This document shows, in pieces, positions 1 to 47,675 of a DNA stretch of 64,000 bases; positions within the stretch are counted from its first letter, which is position 1; each line of letters starts with the position of its first letter. The notes beneath the pieces were generated by a model. The model was not told where the DNA came from. It worked only from the letters and a program-made list of their open reading frames with translations, and did not search any database. Source of the DNA: Lentisphaeria bacterium (lineage in GTDB: Bacteria; Verrucomicrobiota; Lentisphaeria; Oligosphaerales; Oligosphaeraceae); NCBI GenBank assembly GCA_024405215.1, contig JAKSPB010000016.1, positions 1-64,000 of the forward strand, given 5' to 3'. The position numbers were made by a program, and so were the translations under genes.

Positions 1-75
1 CTTGCAGATTCAAGCTGCCTTGAGTTCAATTTCATCAGTTTTTTTCTCAATTTTCGAAATTATGGGACGGCTGTG
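1..75 (-). repeat. End of a large palindromic repeat element (copy C, cut by window edge)
   Basis: The first 75 bases are the reverse complement of the left ends of the elements at 23548-23971 and 47212-47665. Bases 60-75 are the terminal inverted repeat TTATGGGACGGCTGTG. The rest matches the adjoining AT-rich arm that contains TCAATTTCATCAG and TTTCTCAATTTTCGAAAT. The remainder of this copy lies outside the window. It encodes nothing recognisable. Confidence 0.8.
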
Positions 76-23347: not shown

Positions 23348-23442
23348 CTGCCGTCTTCTGCTTGTTGTGCTCGGACAGAGTGACGTCTGCAAGGCCATTG
23401 CCCTGAAATTCCTTGTTTTCTCTCACAAGGCAAAACAGCTCC

Positions 23443-23530
23443 GCCTTGCGGCGGGAGCGCAAAACAATCAAAAAAGGAAAAACAGTTCCGCCTTGCGGCG
23501 GGAGAGCAAAACCTTTGTTTTGCTCTCCGT
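23443..23530 (+). repeat. A-rich short palindromic repeats (two units)
   Basis: Two units of the form AAAACAG(C/T)TCCGCCTTGCGGCGGGAG(C/A)GCAAAAC lie in tandem, each with a GC palindrome (CCGCCTTGCGG-like) between A-runs. They are followed by TTTTGCTCTCCGTCTTT. Very similar units occur downstream of the GH42-like gene at 41200-41290. They lie ~100 bases after trmB and may act as transcription terminators or processing sites. Confidence 0.6.
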
Positions 23531-23547
23531 CTTTCGCGTTTTGTTTT

Positions 23548-23971
23548 CACAGTCGTCCCATAATTTCGAAGATTGAGAAAAAACTGATGAAATTGAACTC
23601 AAGGCGGCTTAAATTTGCAAGACACTTTTTTTGTGTGTAAGCTGTGTTAAGTTGAAACCGCCATTTTCTGTGGAACACTGCCTTTCCACAGGCCTGCGGA
23701 GCAGGCCGTGTGAAGGGTAACCGCAGGTCGAGCGAAGCGAGGCCTGCGGCTTGCCTCCTAATGACTCCAGAGCCTTGCGGAGCAAGGCGAGTGAATGCCA
23801 GCCATTCCCGCCCATGATTCACTCGCCCTGCTCCGCAGGGCTCTGGGGAGGGGGATGGGCGTTCCCGCAGGCCTCGGCGCTTCGCGCCTCGACCTGCGGT
23901 TACGCCTGACTCGCCTTGCTCCGCAAGGCTCTTGAAAAGCCTTTCAATGCCGTTGTTATGGGACGGCTGTG
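23548..23971 (+). repeat. Large palindromic repeat element, copy A (terminal inverted repeats)
   Basis: A 424-bp element bounded by CACAGTCGTCCCATAA on the left and TTATGGGACGGCTGTG on the right, an imperfect 16-bp terminal inverted repeat. The interior holds CCGCAGGTCGAGCGAAGCGAGGCCTGCGG and CCTTGCGGAGCAAGGCGAGTGAAT. Their near-inverse copies (CCGCAGGCCTCGGCGCTTCGCGCCTCGACCTGCGG and ATTCACTCGCCCTGCTCCGCAGGG) follow in the second half, so the whole element could fold as one long hairpin. Copies are at 47212-47665 and 1-75. Short in-frame stretches inside it do not look like real genes. It fills most of the 700-base gap between trmB and the HD gene. Confidence 0.85.
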
Positions 23972-24051
23972 TTTTGTTTTTTGAATTTTTGTTTTGCGTT
24001 TCCTCCGCCGGCCGGCGGTAAGTTAACGAAATCTGTTCTTTCTCGCGTTGC

Positions 24052-29905: not shown

Positions 29906-29921
29906 AATTCTTGAGCCGGGG

Positions 29922-30081
29922 GGAGCTTTTTGCAAAAGTCGCTTTGCCCACTTTTCGCTCTTCCGGGGTATTTCCCTCAAAAGGTTTCGTGTCGTAATGG
30001 ACTACGCCTTGTCACATTTGGGACAAACTGCCTCCGAAATCCCTGCAAAGTGCCTTTAACTGGACTTTTGCAAAAGGCTCC
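29922..30081 (+). repeat. MITE-like element, copy M1
   Basis: A ~160-bp sequence with terminal inverted repeats: GGAGCTTTTTGCAAAAGTC on the left and GACTTTTGCAAAAGGCTCC on the right, 18 of 19 bases complementary. Internal blocks CACTTTTCGCTCTTCCGGGG, GTCGTAATGGACTACGCCTT and CAAACTGCCTCCGAAATCC are shared with copies at 42443 (full length) and 30791 (internally shortened). It has no coding capacity. It looks like a non-autonomous mobile element; no transposase is present in the window. Confidence 0.75.
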
Positions 30082-30166
30082 GGGATTCTGGATTGTCAAT
30101 CGTTTCTGCTTTTTTTCTGTCGGCGTGTAACCTTTCGTGTTTTTCCGTGTATTTAGAGAGAACGAC

Positions 30167-30279: not shown

Positions 30280-30792
30280 ATGACTGTTGAAGAACACTAC
30301 AAGGTAATTGCTCCCAGATTGACCAACTGGCTGGTCGCGACGGGGTCGTCCTACGCCAATGCGTGCGACCTGGTCCAGGAGACCTTCCTGCGTCTATGGC
30401 GGATGCGGGAGGACTTGCAGGACAACGATGCCGCGGTGGCGGGGCTGGCCTTTGCCACCGCGAAGAACCTTCGCAAGAACTTCTACCGGGACAATGCGCG
30501 GGTGGATTTCGTAGAGGAGGTTTCCGAAAATGCCTCCAAAGCGCCGACGCCAACGGATAAGCATGACGTCGCGTATATCCGCAGTTGTCTGGTGTCGGCA
30601 TTTGCGGAATTGCCGCCGCTTTTGCGCGAGGCATACACGCTTTTTCAGATTGGCGAACTTTCCATCCGGGAGATCGCCCATGAGACGGGAGCCAGCGAGG
30701 AATTGGTCAAGGTTCGGATTTTCCGGGCCAAGACAAAGCTCAAGGAGATTCTTTCCCGGAATAGCGAGTTGGCTGCATTCATTGATAAGTGA
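30280..30792 (+). CDS. ECF-type RNA polymerase sigma factor
   Basis: A 170-residue protein. Region 2 (residues ~20-65) includes ANACDLVQETFLRLWRMRE, corresponding to the conserved D-L-x-Q-E-x-F-L-R-x-W motif. Region 4 (~110-160) includes ELPPLLREAYTLFQIGELSIREIAHETGASEELVKVRIFRAKTKL, the typical HTH of sigma-70 region 4. The length is standard for the ECF group. No anti-sigma factor gene is recognisable next to it; two small unassigned genes follow. Its stop is directly joined to MITE-like copy M2, which may affect downstream transcription. Confidence 0.9.
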   Translation: MTVEEHYKVIAPRLTNWLVATGSSYANACDLVQETFLRLWRMREDLQDNDAAVAGLAFATAKNLRKNFYRDNARVDFVEEVSENASKAPTPTDKHDVAYIRSCLVSAFAELPPLLREAYTLFQIGELSIREIAHETGASEELVKVRIFRAKTKLKEILSRNSELAAFIDK

Positions 30793-30891
30793 GGTAATTG
30801 CAAGAGTCGCTTTTGTCACTTTTCGCGCTTGAGTCAAACTGCTTCGGAAATCTCTGAAAAGTGCCTTCAAATGGGCTTTTACAATTACCTC
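30791..30891 (+). repeat. MITE-like element, copy M2 (internally deleted)
   Basis: A 101-bp copy with ends GAGGTAATTGCAAGAGTC and the inverse of GAGGTAATTGTAAAAGCCC. It keeps the outer blocks (CACTTTTCGCGCTT, AAACTGCTTCGGAAATC, AAAAGTGCCTTCAAATGG) but lacks the central ~55 bases of M1 and M3. Its first bases overlap the sigma-factor stop codon. It lies between that gene and the small ORF at 30917. Confidence 0.75.
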
Positions 30892-30916
30892 AAGTGATTT
30901 TCTTTTGACATCCACT

Positions 30917-36541: not shown

Positions 36542-37624
36542 ATGGGCAAGAGCGATTGCGCGGCAAAAGTGTTCCTTTCCGACCGGCGAATTTTCGCAGA
36601 CCTGGTGAACTACAGGATCTTCGGCGGAAAGCAAGTAGTAGAAGCGAGCGACCTTCAGGAGACGAATTGCGACGAGGTAACGCCTCTGCCGGATGGCATC
36701 GGTAGTCCGTCCTATAAAGAAAGCCTGCGGGACATGGTGATGAACGTGGCGATGCGGACACCAGATGGCACGAAGTATCTCGTGATAGGCGTGGAAAATC
36801 AGATGAGTTCGCATCTGGCCATGCCGGCGCGGTGCATGCTCTACGATGCGATGCGACACACGGAGAACCTGCGCCGCATTATCAATGACAACAAGGAGAA
36901 GCACCTCGCAGGAAGAGAGTTCCTTTCCGGGCTGTGTCCCGAGGATCGCATTCCACCCGTGGTGACGCTTGTCATCTACTGGGGGCCGGGATGCTGGACG
37001 GGGCCGCGCTTTCTCCACGAGATGGTTGACTATCCTGACGAGCAGCTGAAGACACTCTGTGCCGACTACCAGCTGAATTTGATTGAGCCTGCCATGATGG
37101 ACGAGGCTGCCTTCCATGATTTCCGCACTGATCTCGGCGCGGTATTACATTATGCGAAGGCACAGGCTGATGGCGGGGAATTGCGCCGTCTGCTTTGCGA
37201 AGACGAGCGTTGTAAGATGCTGAGTCGCAATGCGGCAGAAGTGGTGCAGACGGTGTTGGGCATGGAAATTCCGATTGATGAAAACGAGGAGGTAACAGAC
37301 ATGTGCAAGGCTTTGGAGCAAATCAAGCAGTGGTCTTTTGAGGAAGGCGAGCAGACCGGTTTCGCGAAGGGCGAGCAGACCGGTTTCGCGAAGGGCGAGC
37401 AGACCGGTTTCGCAAAAGGCGAGCGGACTGGTTTCGCAAAAGGCGAGCGGACTGGTTTCGCGAAGGGCGAGCGGACCGGCTTCGCGAAGGGCGAGCAGAC
37501 CGGTATTCAAAAGGCGGTGTCCATTCTCAAGGAACTCCAACTTGACATGGGGGTGATTCAGGAGAAGCTGATGACGGCATATTCCCTAACTGCCGATGAG
37601 GCTCTGAAATACATCCACAACTAA
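36542..37624 (+). CDS. Rpn-family PD-(D/E)XK nuclease / putative transposase-like protein with octapeptide repeats
   Basis: A 360-residue protein. FADLVNYRIFGGKQVVEASDLQETNCDE is the family N-terminus. YLVIGVENQMSSHLAMPARCMLYDAMRH contains the E-N-Q catalytic-type segment of PD-(D/E)XK enzymes, and VVTLVIYWGPGCWTGPR follows in order. Near residue 265 begins an array of seven octapeptides, GE(Q/R)TGFAKGE-like, encoded by a 24-bp tandem repeat (37346-37513). A short helical C-terminus follows. Members of this family promote recombination or act as small transposase-like nucleases and often carry such variable Gly-rich arrays. No inverted repeats mark it as an IS. Confidence 0.78.
   Translation: MGKSDCAAKVFLSDRRIFADLVNYRIFGGKQVVEASDLQETNCDEVTPLPDGIGSPSYKESLRDMVMNVAMRTPDGTKYLVIGVENQMSSHLAMPARCMLYDAMRHTENLRRIINDNKEKHLAGREFLSGLCPEDRIPPVVTLVIYWGPGCWTGPRFLHEMVDYPDEQLKTLCADYQLNLIEPAMMDEAAFHDFRTDLGAVLHYAKAQADGGELRRLLCEDERCKMLSRNAAEVVQTVLGMEIPIDENEEVTDMCKALEQIKQWSFEEGEQTGFAKGEQTGFAKGEQTGFAKGERTGFAKGERTGFAKGERTGFAKGEQTGIQKAVSILKELQLDMGVIQEKLMTAYSLTADEALKYIHN
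37346..37513 (+). repeat. Seven-unit 24-bp tandem repeat inside the Rpn-type gene
   Basis: Units read GGCGAGCAGACCGGTTTCGCGAAG with mainly silent or conservative changes (CAG to CGG, GAAG to AAAA). The last unit has degenerated to GGTATTCAAAAG. Because the unit is a multiple of three, copy-number change keeps the frame. The peptide unit is G-E-Q/R-T-G-F-A-K. Confidence 0.9.
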
Positions 37625-41199: not shown

Positions 41200-41290
41200 A
41201 AAAACAGCAAAAGAAATCCGCCATCGGCGGGAGCGCAAAACACGCAAAAAGAGCAAAACAGTTCCGCCTTCGGCAGGAGTGTAAAACACA
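41200..41290 (+). repeat. A-rich short palindromic repeats (second locus)
   Basis: Two units: AAAACAGCAAAAGAAATCCGCCATCGGCGGGAGCGCAAAAC and AAAACAGTTCCGCCTTCGGCAGGAGTGTAAAAC. They share the layout and sequence of the units at 23443-23530. They stand right after the GH42-like stop codon. Confidence 0.55.
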
Positions 41291-41665: not shown

Positions 41666-42436
41666 ATGCTGAACGAAATTTCAAAAAAGGATTGCCCGGT
41701 GGAGTCTCTCCGCCGTGGATTGGAGCTTCTGGACTTGCTGTGCGGTTGTGGCGAGGCCGGCTGCGGTTTGGCGGATTTGTCGAATCGTGTCGGGTTGAAG
41801 CGCACGACGGTCCACAATCTGTTGAAGACCCTCGTCTATTCCGGCTATGTCTCCAATCTTGGGGACGGGCATTATGGCGTCGGGTGGAGGATTCGCCGGC
41901 TGAGCGACTTTGAACTTCTGAACCAGATTCCCGGCCATCGCATGGAGAACCTGTCCTCCATGATGCAGGCTCTGACGAAGGAGATCAACGAGGCCCTCAT
42001 TTTGACAGTTTGCGTGAATGGGCATCGTCGAATTGTTACGCGCACCTCTGCCGGTCATTCGGTGGAGGTGAACCTTGACGCCATTTATCACGGTCATCGT
42101 CCTCTATGGACTTTGGAGACGTGGCTTGTGATGGCTGCCTTTGCTTCGGAAGAGGAGTTTGCGCAGATTCGTGCTGCGAACGACTGGCCGACGGATCCGG
42201 CCGCCGCCACGAAACTGTTGTTCCAGCTGGACGAGATTCGCCGGGCGGGCTATGCCAGCCTTCCCAACCCCAGCATCTATGCATGTGCGGTTCCCGTCCT
42301 GAGTGAAAATGGCGAACTTTTGGCTGCGCTGGGCCTGAACCAGCCTCTCTACCGTCATCATGCCCGTGAGACGCGACGCATGATAGAACGACTTCAACAG
42401 GGTGCCGCGCTTCTTGCGCAGCATTGGAACGAATAG
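41666..42436 (+). CDS. IclR-family transcriptional regulator
   Basis: A 256-residue protein. The winged HTH (~10-75) has SLRRGLELLDLLCG, GLADLSNRVGLKRTTVHNLLKTLVYSGYV and a DGHYGVGWRI wing. The effector domain follows, with HRRIVTRTSAGHSVEVNLDAIYHGHRPLWTLETWLVMAAFASEEE, ending in IYACAVPVLSENGELLAALGLNQPL, typical of IclR. Length is standard. It precedes the duplicated QueG-like gene and is separated from it only by MITE-like copy M3, so it may control that gene or respond to its product. The effector is unknown. Confidence 0.9.
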   Translation: MLNEISKKDCPVESLRRGLELLDLLCGCGEAGCGLADLSNRVGLKRTTVHNLLKTLVYSGYVSNLGDGHYGVGWRIRRLSDFELLNQIPGHRMENLSSMMQALTKEINEALILTVCVNGHRRIVTRTSAGHSVEVNLDAIYHGHRPLWTLETWLVMAAFASEEEFAQIRAANDWPTDPAAATKLLFQLDEIRRAGYASLPNPSIYACAVPVLSENGELLAALGLNQPLYRHHARETRRMIERLQQGAALLAQHWNE

Positions 42437-42442
42437 GTAATA

Positions 42443-42602
42443 GAGGAAATTGCAGAAGTCGCTTTGGGCACTTTTCGCGCTTCCGGGGCATTTTTTTCTC
42501 CAAGTGCTTCTCGTCGTAGTGGACTATGCCTTGGCGCACTTGAAGCAAACTGCCTCCGAAATCCTTGAAAAGTGCCTTCAAATGGACTTTTGCAATTACT
42601 TC
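42443..42602 (+). repeat. MITE-like element, copy M3
   Basis: A 160-bp copy. The left end is GAGGAAATTGCAGAAGTC and the right end is the inverse, GACTTTTGCAATTACTTC. It retains all internal blocks: CACTTTTCGCGCTTCCGGGG, GTCGTAGTGGACTATGCCTTG, AAACTGCCTCCGAAATCC and AAAAGTGCCTTCAAATGG. It lies between the IclR gene and the next gene's AGGAG (42607). Any transcript reading from the IclR promoter must cross its potential hairpin. Confidence 0.8.
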
Positions 42603-42615
42603 AATAGGAGAAAAG

Positions 42616-45895: not shown

Positions 45896-45929
45896 GTCGC
45901 AGAACCTTGCCGTTCTGCGACAGACTTTT
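45896..45929 (+). terminator. Rho-independent terminator after the first pseudopilin gene
   Basis: GTCGCAGAAC-CTTGCC-GTTCTGCGAC is a 10-bp perfect stem followed by AGACTTTTC. Confidence 0.75.
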
Positions 45930-45984: not shown

Positions 45985-46161
45985 GGCTCTGTTCTAGCAA
46001 TAAGTTGGCTTTGCATCTGGAGCCCCGCGGAGCGGGGCGAGTGAAGGGTAACCGCAGGTCGAGCGAAGCGAGGCCTGCGGAAAGCCTCTCAAAATGATCA
46101 GAGCCTTGCGGAGCAAGGCGAGTGAATCCAGGGAAAATCAACACATTGCTAGAACAGAGCC
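45985..46161 (+). repeat. Palindromic repeat element, type D, with distinct terminal repeats
   Basis: A 177-bp sequence. Its ends GGCTCTGTTCTAGCAA and TTGCTAGAACAGAGCC are perfectly inverted (16 bp), and the right end is followed by CTTTTTTG, as in a terminator. The interior contains the same modules as elements A and B: GTGAAGGGTAACCGCAGGTC, GAGCGAAGCGAGGCCTGCGG and GAGCCTTGCGGAGCAAGGCG. It fills the gap between the two pseudopilin genes together with the promoter at 46189. Confidence 0.75.
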
Positions 46162-47152: not shown

Positions 47153-47198
47153 AACGGGGTTGTTGCTGAACGGTGTTTTCGCAACAGCCCCGTTTTTT
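47153..47198 (+). terminator. Rho-independent terminator after the second pseudopilin
   Basis: AACGGGGTTGTTGC pairs with GCAACAGCCCCGTT around a ~14-base loop, followed by TTTTTT. It is strong. Confidence 0.85.
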
Positions 47199-47211
47199 TG
47201 CATTCCCTGAA

Positions 47212-47665
47212 CACAGCCGTCCCATAATTTCGAAAATTGAGAAAAAAGCTGATGAAATTGAACTCAAGGCAGCTTGAATCTGCAAGCCCCCCTTTTTGTG
47301 TGCAGGCTGTGTTAAGGCGGGACTGCCATTTTCTGTTGAACACTGCCCTTCCATAGGCCTGCGGCATGTCCGCCGGAGCCTTGGCGAAGGAGGAAGCAGG
47401 CCGTGTGAAGGGTAACCGCAGGTCGAGCGAAGCGAGGCCTGCGGCTTGTCTCCCAATGACTCCAGAGCCTTGCGGAGCAAGGCGAGTGAATGCCAGCCTT
47501 TCCTGCCCATGATTCACTCGCCCTGCTCCGCAGGGCTCTGGGTAGGAAATGGACGTAACCGCAGGCCTCGGCGCTTCGCGCCTCGACCCGCGGTTACGCC
47601 TGACTCGCCTTGCTCCGCAAGGCTCTTAAAAAGCCTTCCAATGCCATCGTTATGGGACGGCTGTG
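47212..47665 (+). repeat. Large palindromic repeat element, copy B
   Basis: A 454-bp element with perfect 16-bp terminal inverted repeats, CACAGCCGTCCCATAA and TTATGGGACGGCTGTG. It is nearly identical to copy A (23548-23971) in order: the AT-rich arm with GAAATTGAACTCAAGGC, the GGTAACCGCAGGTCGAGCG arm, and its inverse in the second half. It contains an extra ~30-base piece (around GCATGTCCGCCGGAGCCTTGG) lacking in copy A. Confidence 0.88.
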
Positions 47666-47675
47666 TTCCCTGAAT

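Follow-up and report, generated by a model that had tools for sequence, protein, structure and literature searches.

Triple-hairpin repeats of an IS200-type system as probable cargo of IS4-derived MITEs in a Lentisphaeria genome

Repeated elements of the window and their copies in the assembly

The window analyzed here comprises bases 1-64000 of contig C8, taken from an assembly of 2.98 Mb and 82 contigs whose nearest named relatives are gut MAGs of Victivallales and Lentisphaeria. It contains two full-length elements on the plus strand, A (23548-23971, 424 bp) and B (47212-47665, 454 bp), that align over their full length at 85% identity, together with element C (1-75, minus strand), the left end of a further copy that is truncated by the contig end and is 99% identical to positions 1-75 of B. 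The 16-bp end sequence CACAGYCGTCCCATAA has exact matches at 60-75 (-), 23548-23563 (+), 23956-23971 (-), 47212-47227 (+) and 47650-47665 (-), and a search of the window with up to 3 mismatches yields 5 matches where 0.66 are expected. A fourth element, D (45985-46161, plus strand), is a long palindrome with the unrelated ends GGCTCTGTTCTAGCAA; its 16-bp arms, 45985-46000 and 46146-46161, are perfect.

The core of these elements is a triplet, P-Q-P. Hairpin P (GAGCCNTGCGGAGCANGGCGAGTGAA) comes first, then a TAACC motif with the longer hairpin Q (CCGCAGG...CCTGCGG), and ∼20 nt of spacer separate Q from a second P. The core hairpin GAGCCTTGCGGAGCAAGGCGAGTGAA is matched 7 times in the window at ≤3 mismatches with 0 matches expected, and at the same stringency we counted 22 P sites in the whole genome against 0 for the control. 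In A the triplet occupies 23691-23796 on the plus strand, with its second P at 23770-23795, and it returns in inverted form on the minus strand at 23818-23931 (P units 23818-23843 and 23906-23931). B has the same P-Q-P / P'-Q'-P' core with a 27-bp insertion in its first P, and in A, B and a copy on contig C62 the two triplets stand head to head with ∼20 nt between them. The triplet of D lies at 46020-46128 on the plus strand (P at 46020-46045 and 46101-46126, Q at ∼46052-46080). Because the two triplets of A and B are inverted relative to each other, each element forms one big hairpin. Folding of B is far stronger than that of its shuffles (z = -11.4), and the same holds for D (z = -9.2). A preliminary description of this DNA had assigned these coordinates to all four elements, common 16-bp ends to A, B and C, unrelated ends around the same core to D, and a long-hairpin fold to the direct and inverted blocks; each of these assignments is confirmed.

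Both full-length elements are flanked by perfect 9-bp direct duplications, TTTTGTTTT at 23539-23547 and 23972-23980 for A, and TTCCCTGAA at 47203-47211 and 47666-47674 for B. Across the genome such duplications accompany six MITE copies, four of them perfect: A, B, the copy on C56 (ATCTACAAT) and a split element on C14 and C47 (AAAAACTAT). As AAAAACTAT stands beside the element at both contig ends, we regard these as two halves of a single insertion. The copies on C62 and C82 match at 8/9 positions, as compared with ≤6/9 when left and right flanks were paired across different elements as a control. Flank comparison revealed no target duplication at the copies on C23 and C18. The former (G000:C23:97193-97480) has inverted rather than directly duplicated flanking 9-mers, AAAACAGTT / AACTGTTTT, and in the latter (G000:C18:10460-10672) a different palindrome (TATAGTGAGCGACAAAAATAAATTT..) stands in place of the core and may be a third nested element. 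The trmB-HD gene pair that surrounds A is kept in 6 relatives with a spacing of 23-251 bp and no MITE end, as opposed to 704 bp in the window; a base-precise empty site was not obtained from these relatives, as their spacer is not alignable.

The proposed family, dispersed and with inverted repeats at its termini, is borne out genome-wide: the 16-bp ends occur at 30 sites (≤2 mismatches) against 2 for a reversed-pattern control. The sites are of two types, a left arm that continues TTTCGAAAATTGAG and a right arm that continues CGACGGCATTGGAAGGC. Several contigs stop within a MITE (the start of C8 and ends of C14, C23, C37, C47 and C72), which indicates that the element breaks the assembly and that the copies counted are a minimum. 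Two sets of short repeats adjoin the elements of the window. A 93-nt repeat in two copies that are 77% identical (83-292) directly borders the MITE end C, and short repeats CGGCGGGAGCGCAAAAC..CAGTTCCGCCTT are found at 23427-23512 and 41225-41270, two of them adjoining A and one 18 kb away.

An IS4-family lineage with the same ends

In the closed genome of a related genus (G008) we found paired ends of this type 1550 bp apart. Each of the 4 IS copies examined there carries an intact 454-aa transposase, and 3 of the 4 have perfect 9-bp target duplications. The transposase scores 226 bits with the NCBIfam model NF033592 (IS4_1, cut-off 115), also matches PF01609 and PF14294, and has a readable Y-2-R-3-E-6-K signature. 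Both ends of A, of B and of the 1550-bp IS carry CACAGCCGTCCCATAA/G. MITE-type ends (≤1 mismatch) were present at least once in 12/12 genera searched in the family, mostly in low numbers.

An intact IS4 parent was not found in the assembly of the window genome, which contains fragments and one distant relative with different ends. Decayed pieces of an IS4 transposase are located on C5, C35 and C66, and the remnant on C5, next to which is an identical 16-bp end, encodes a transposase C-terminus of 76% identity. Alignment of the MITE left arm gave z = 11.9 with this remnant (0/200 shuffles) and z = 6.3 with the 3' end of the IS from G008; for the right arm the alignment with the IS gave no similarity past the 16-bp end. 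A search of the window genome with PF01609 also led to an intact IS4 gene on C40, which we considered as a parent and rejected. Its ends (CACTACTGTCCGGTAA) are only 11/16 identical, so this IS is a relative and not the parent. The common ends, the 9-bp duplications and the homology of the left arm together identify A, B and C as MITEs derived from an IS4-family IS with ends CACAGCCGTCCCATAR, and the IS4 transposase would then move them in trans. The preliminary description had stated that no transposase is nearby. This is true of the window, but as a picture of the system it is misleading, given the IS4 parent in a related genus, its fragments in the same genome, and a transposase gene for the core on C1 that is described below. 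In another genus (G005) we noted 33 ends CACAGCCGTCCCATAG (≤1 mismatch), some of them in pairs 333-365 bp apart (e.g. L142 2259-2623 and L144 1434-1766), which seem to represent a MITE family of their own within the same IS group.

The P-Q-P core and a Y1 transposase

Contig C1 carries, at 94594-95285, a P-Q-P triplet, a Y1 transposase gene and an inverted P'-Q'-P' triplet, and the MITE right end comes next, with an unchanged junction sequence. The product of this tnpA matches PF01797 (61.9 bits) and has an HUH motif. As the gene is frameshifted near its end and the MITE left end is missing, its passage through the MITE is deduced from the common right junction alone. This cassette is bordered on either side by a partial duplication of a methyltransferase-like gene start (L079 1182-1245 and 2121-2185). 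Elsewhere in the genome, C53 has two lone triplets and C60 a triplet together with the 3' part of a similar Y1 gene, and the core copies on both contigs are free of MITE arms. Other copies are reduced. The one on C23 has the same 27-bp insertion as B, is 99% identical to it over 262 bp and has lost the inverted half; the one on C56 lacks almost the same stretch, lost at the direct repeat AGCCTT; on C82 a single P remains of the core. These three appear to have arisen from the large form by palindrome-linked deletion.

The modular assembly suggested earlier and a core found with differing ends are supported; copies of the core that lack the 16-bp ends are those of C53, C60, C33 and D. The genome search that had been proposed as a check on the family gives a mixed result, since the ends do recur across the genome and the core is also found where these ends are lacking. 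We attribute the latter to the core being a mobile unit in its own right.

Y1 transposases of this group score 57.4, 64.6 and 70 bits with the IS200 model (cut-off 55) and 26.7, 21.5 and 24.2 bits with the model for REP-associated tyrosine transposases (RAYTs), under its cut-off of 80. Among 22 relatives in the family the HUH motif is present in all and the signature Y---Q--HH in 20/22, and inverted repeats surround the gene at z > 7 in 16/22, the C1 copy counted. The eight closest relatives, which are 33-44% identical and come from other genera, include six with z > 25; of the other two, one stops at the edge of its contig and the other is broken. Hairpin sequence itself varies by genome, with the triplet order and TAACC recurring in L150, L151, L153 and L154, the clearest cases as judged by eye. 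On reading the window genome and G008 we saw no GTAG or CGTC foot beside P or Q. Given that the transposases pass the IS200 model and fail the RAYT model, and that these feet are missing, we conclude that the core behaves as a REP module would and do not class it as a REP. The association of gene and triplet suggests that TnpA moves P-Q-P.

If so, insertion should bear the mark of replication. For IS608 and ISDra2, insertion into the lagging-strand template is established (PMC6006769). In G008 the strand of P-Q-P copies depends on their position. We sampled this genome in eighty 20-kb pieces (1.6 Mb) and obtained 42 full-length P-Q-P copies in 33 clusters, which scales to ∼150 copies in total; the unit has sharp edges there and a spacer of variable sequence. 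GC skew in these samples turns near 2.0-2.1 and 5.03-5.1 Mb. The right replichore has 19 plus and 1 minus clusters and the left 11 minus and 2 plus, so that orientation tracks the replichore in 30/33 clusters (Fisher p = 4e-6) in this one genome of another genus, the contigs of the window genome being impossible to orient. One of the exceptions sits at the terminus transition. Gene orientation was ruled out as the source of this bias by the strand counts of ORFs ≥250 aa in the two replichores (169/204 and 182/176), which are unbiased. Relative to the neighboring ORF, P-Q-P is on the same strand in 19 cases and on the opposite strand in 17, and none of the 42 copies lies within 500 nt of an IS4 end. 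The pattern is as the Y1 mechanism predicts from IS608 and ISDra2, and orientation by replichore that is independent of gene orientation would be the expected signature of single-strand insertion.

Interpretation and comparison with known systems

Taken together, we believe with a probability of about 0.87 that A, B and C are IS4-derived MITEs whose core is cargo from a second, IS200-type single-strand system, so that two transposition systems are stacked. In this scheme an IS4 transposase acting in trans would recognize the CACAGCCGTCCCATAR ends, excise the MITE and insert it with a 9-bp target duplication. P-Q-P would be the cognate flank of an IS200-like HUH (Y1) transposase and could spread alone as ssDNA with a replication-dependent orientation. 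The P-Q-P / tnpA / P'-Q'-P' cassette, or a gene-less form of it, would once have entered the MITE lineage, and the C1 copy, in which tnpA still adjoins the MITE right end, would preserve this arrangement. Shorter MITE copies would then be deletions of the inverted core, and D a further P-Q-P unit in a different palindrome. We infer this order of events, from the entry of the cassette to the later forms.

A simpler account would make the core the MITE's own, grown by internal duplication, with D and the lone cores produced by recombination and no second mobile system. Many core copies in the window genome do sit inside MITEs. However, the triplet also flanks a Y1 gene, both here and, with other hairpin sequences, in other genera; the copies sampled in G008 are dispersed and stand clear of IS4 ends; and the cores on C53 and C60 have no MITE arms. 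This account is already largely refuted, and we consider it highly improbable. Selection at gene ends for an RNA-level device such as a terminator, mRNA stabilizer or attenuator, with repetition being secondary, has slightly more in its favor and is still unlikely. An RNA-level function is known for REPs (PMC3733652), the folds of B and D are very stable, and D is located after a gene and is followed by six T. Against this, target duplications and transposon ends denote mobility, the units in G008 follow the direction of replication rather than the neighboring ORF, and an Rfam search gave no match. The upstream genes, moreover, have terminator-like hairpins of their own ahead of B and D. The terminator of the gene upstream of B is at ∼47165-47190 with B directly after it, and a complete terminator-like hairpin (45896-45921) separates the prepilin gene from D. 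These separate hairpins also mean that insertion of the core into terminators, as first suggested, is not supported: B lies past the terminator of its upstream gene, D probably does as well, and arms shared by D and another element, D2, recur at a locus unrelated to this one. A secondary RNA role of the elements may exist alongside their mobility.

For D, we consider either a MITE of a further family or a P-Q-P unit within an older palindrome. That D is a MITE belonging to a third transposase family, with GGCTCTGTTCTAGCAA as its ends and P-Q-P captured independently, falls somewhat short of an even chance. This reading is favored by D2 (C33:28753), whose left arm is like that of D over ∼24 bp at an unrelated locus, with P-Q inside D2 as P-Q-P is inside D. 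Against it, the family would have two copies only, inspection gave no clear target duplication at D, and a search of 28 further genomes of the family found neither the paired ends nor a parent. D could equally well have arisen by insertion of P-Q-P into a palindrome already in place, as has been described for some REPs (PMC3733652). D2 also contains the motif GACTTTTGCAAAAG (L074, ∼1645-1700) of a second intergenic repeat family, which is represented in the window at 29913-30082, 30781-30893 and 42433-42604 by blocks of 50-100 bp that are 66-84% identical.

The stacked arrangement of IS4-type ends around an IS200-type core shares features with several known systems. A and B resemble IS4-family MITEs in being short, gene-less and dispersed, with the inverted ends of an IS4-type IS and a 9-bp target duplication, but differ in that more than half of their length is inverted REP-like hairpin cargo of another transposase. 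As with REPs, BIMEs, REPINs and the REPtrons formed with TnpA-REP (RAYT), small palindromes occur in many copies, alone, clustered or inverted around a Y1 gene (PMC6006769, PMC3733652); here, in contrast, a fixed P-Q-P order with TAACC before Q takes the place of a visible GTAG/CGTC foot, and the transposase falls on the IS200 side of the two model cut-offs. The TnpA-Y1 proteins of subclass 1.2 have the same Y---Q--HH signature, a length of ∼150 aa and a low gene copy number (PMC6006769), a match judged by the published definition of the signature. That subclass was described as generally lacking terminal secondary structures and REPs and as occurring for the most part in Cyanobacteria and Bacteroidetes (Quentin et al. 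2018, PMC6006769), whereas the genes described here have hairpins in inverted order on their flanks and a cognate repeat of high copy number. In class 3, several atypical hairpins flank the gene and the associated structures are high-copy, as here, but the class differs in its Y----Q motif, NHVH, CnGA foot and longer protein (PMC6006769). Finally, REP dimers are found within long palindromes in Anabaena variabilis (GTAG-15) and Halothiobacillus neapolitanus (CGTC-1), where a REP pair lies inside a larger palindrome much as in D and A/B; for those outer palindromes the same study reports neither transposon ends nor a target duplication nor a parent transposase (PMC3733652).

IS4 MITEs, REPs or BIMEs with RAYTs, and IS200-like TnpAs are each known, and the novelty here lies in their combination as a variant. 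None of the papers in the collection searched mentions both a Lentisphaer- name and the repetitive extragenic palindrome. On a more general level, it seems fairly likely that Y1 transposases with the subclass 1.2 signature drive REP-like triple-hairpin modules in Victivallales, with spread as ssDNA, an orientation set by replication and hairpins that diverge along with the transposase, and that one lineage was captured by an IS4-type MITE and so also moves by cut-and-paste. The spread of REP sequences is still called poorly understood (PMC8266576), and a near-complete replichore rule in the absence of gene bias amounts to population-scale evidence that such a unit inserts at the fork in single-stranded form. 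A Y1 subclass thought to have no partner repeats would thereby be linked to a fast-changing hairpin family, making co-evolution of transposase and hairpin comparable across ∼10 genera. Capture by the MITE would exemplify how a repeat that travels as a single strand can switch to a cut-and-paste vehicle, and would explain big mosaic palindromes that break short-read assemblies.

As a separate observation on the window, the ORF at 36542-37624, which has no Pfam match, contains an in-frame tandem repeat with a 24-bp period (37296-37535) that encodes ∼8 GEQTGFAK-like units.
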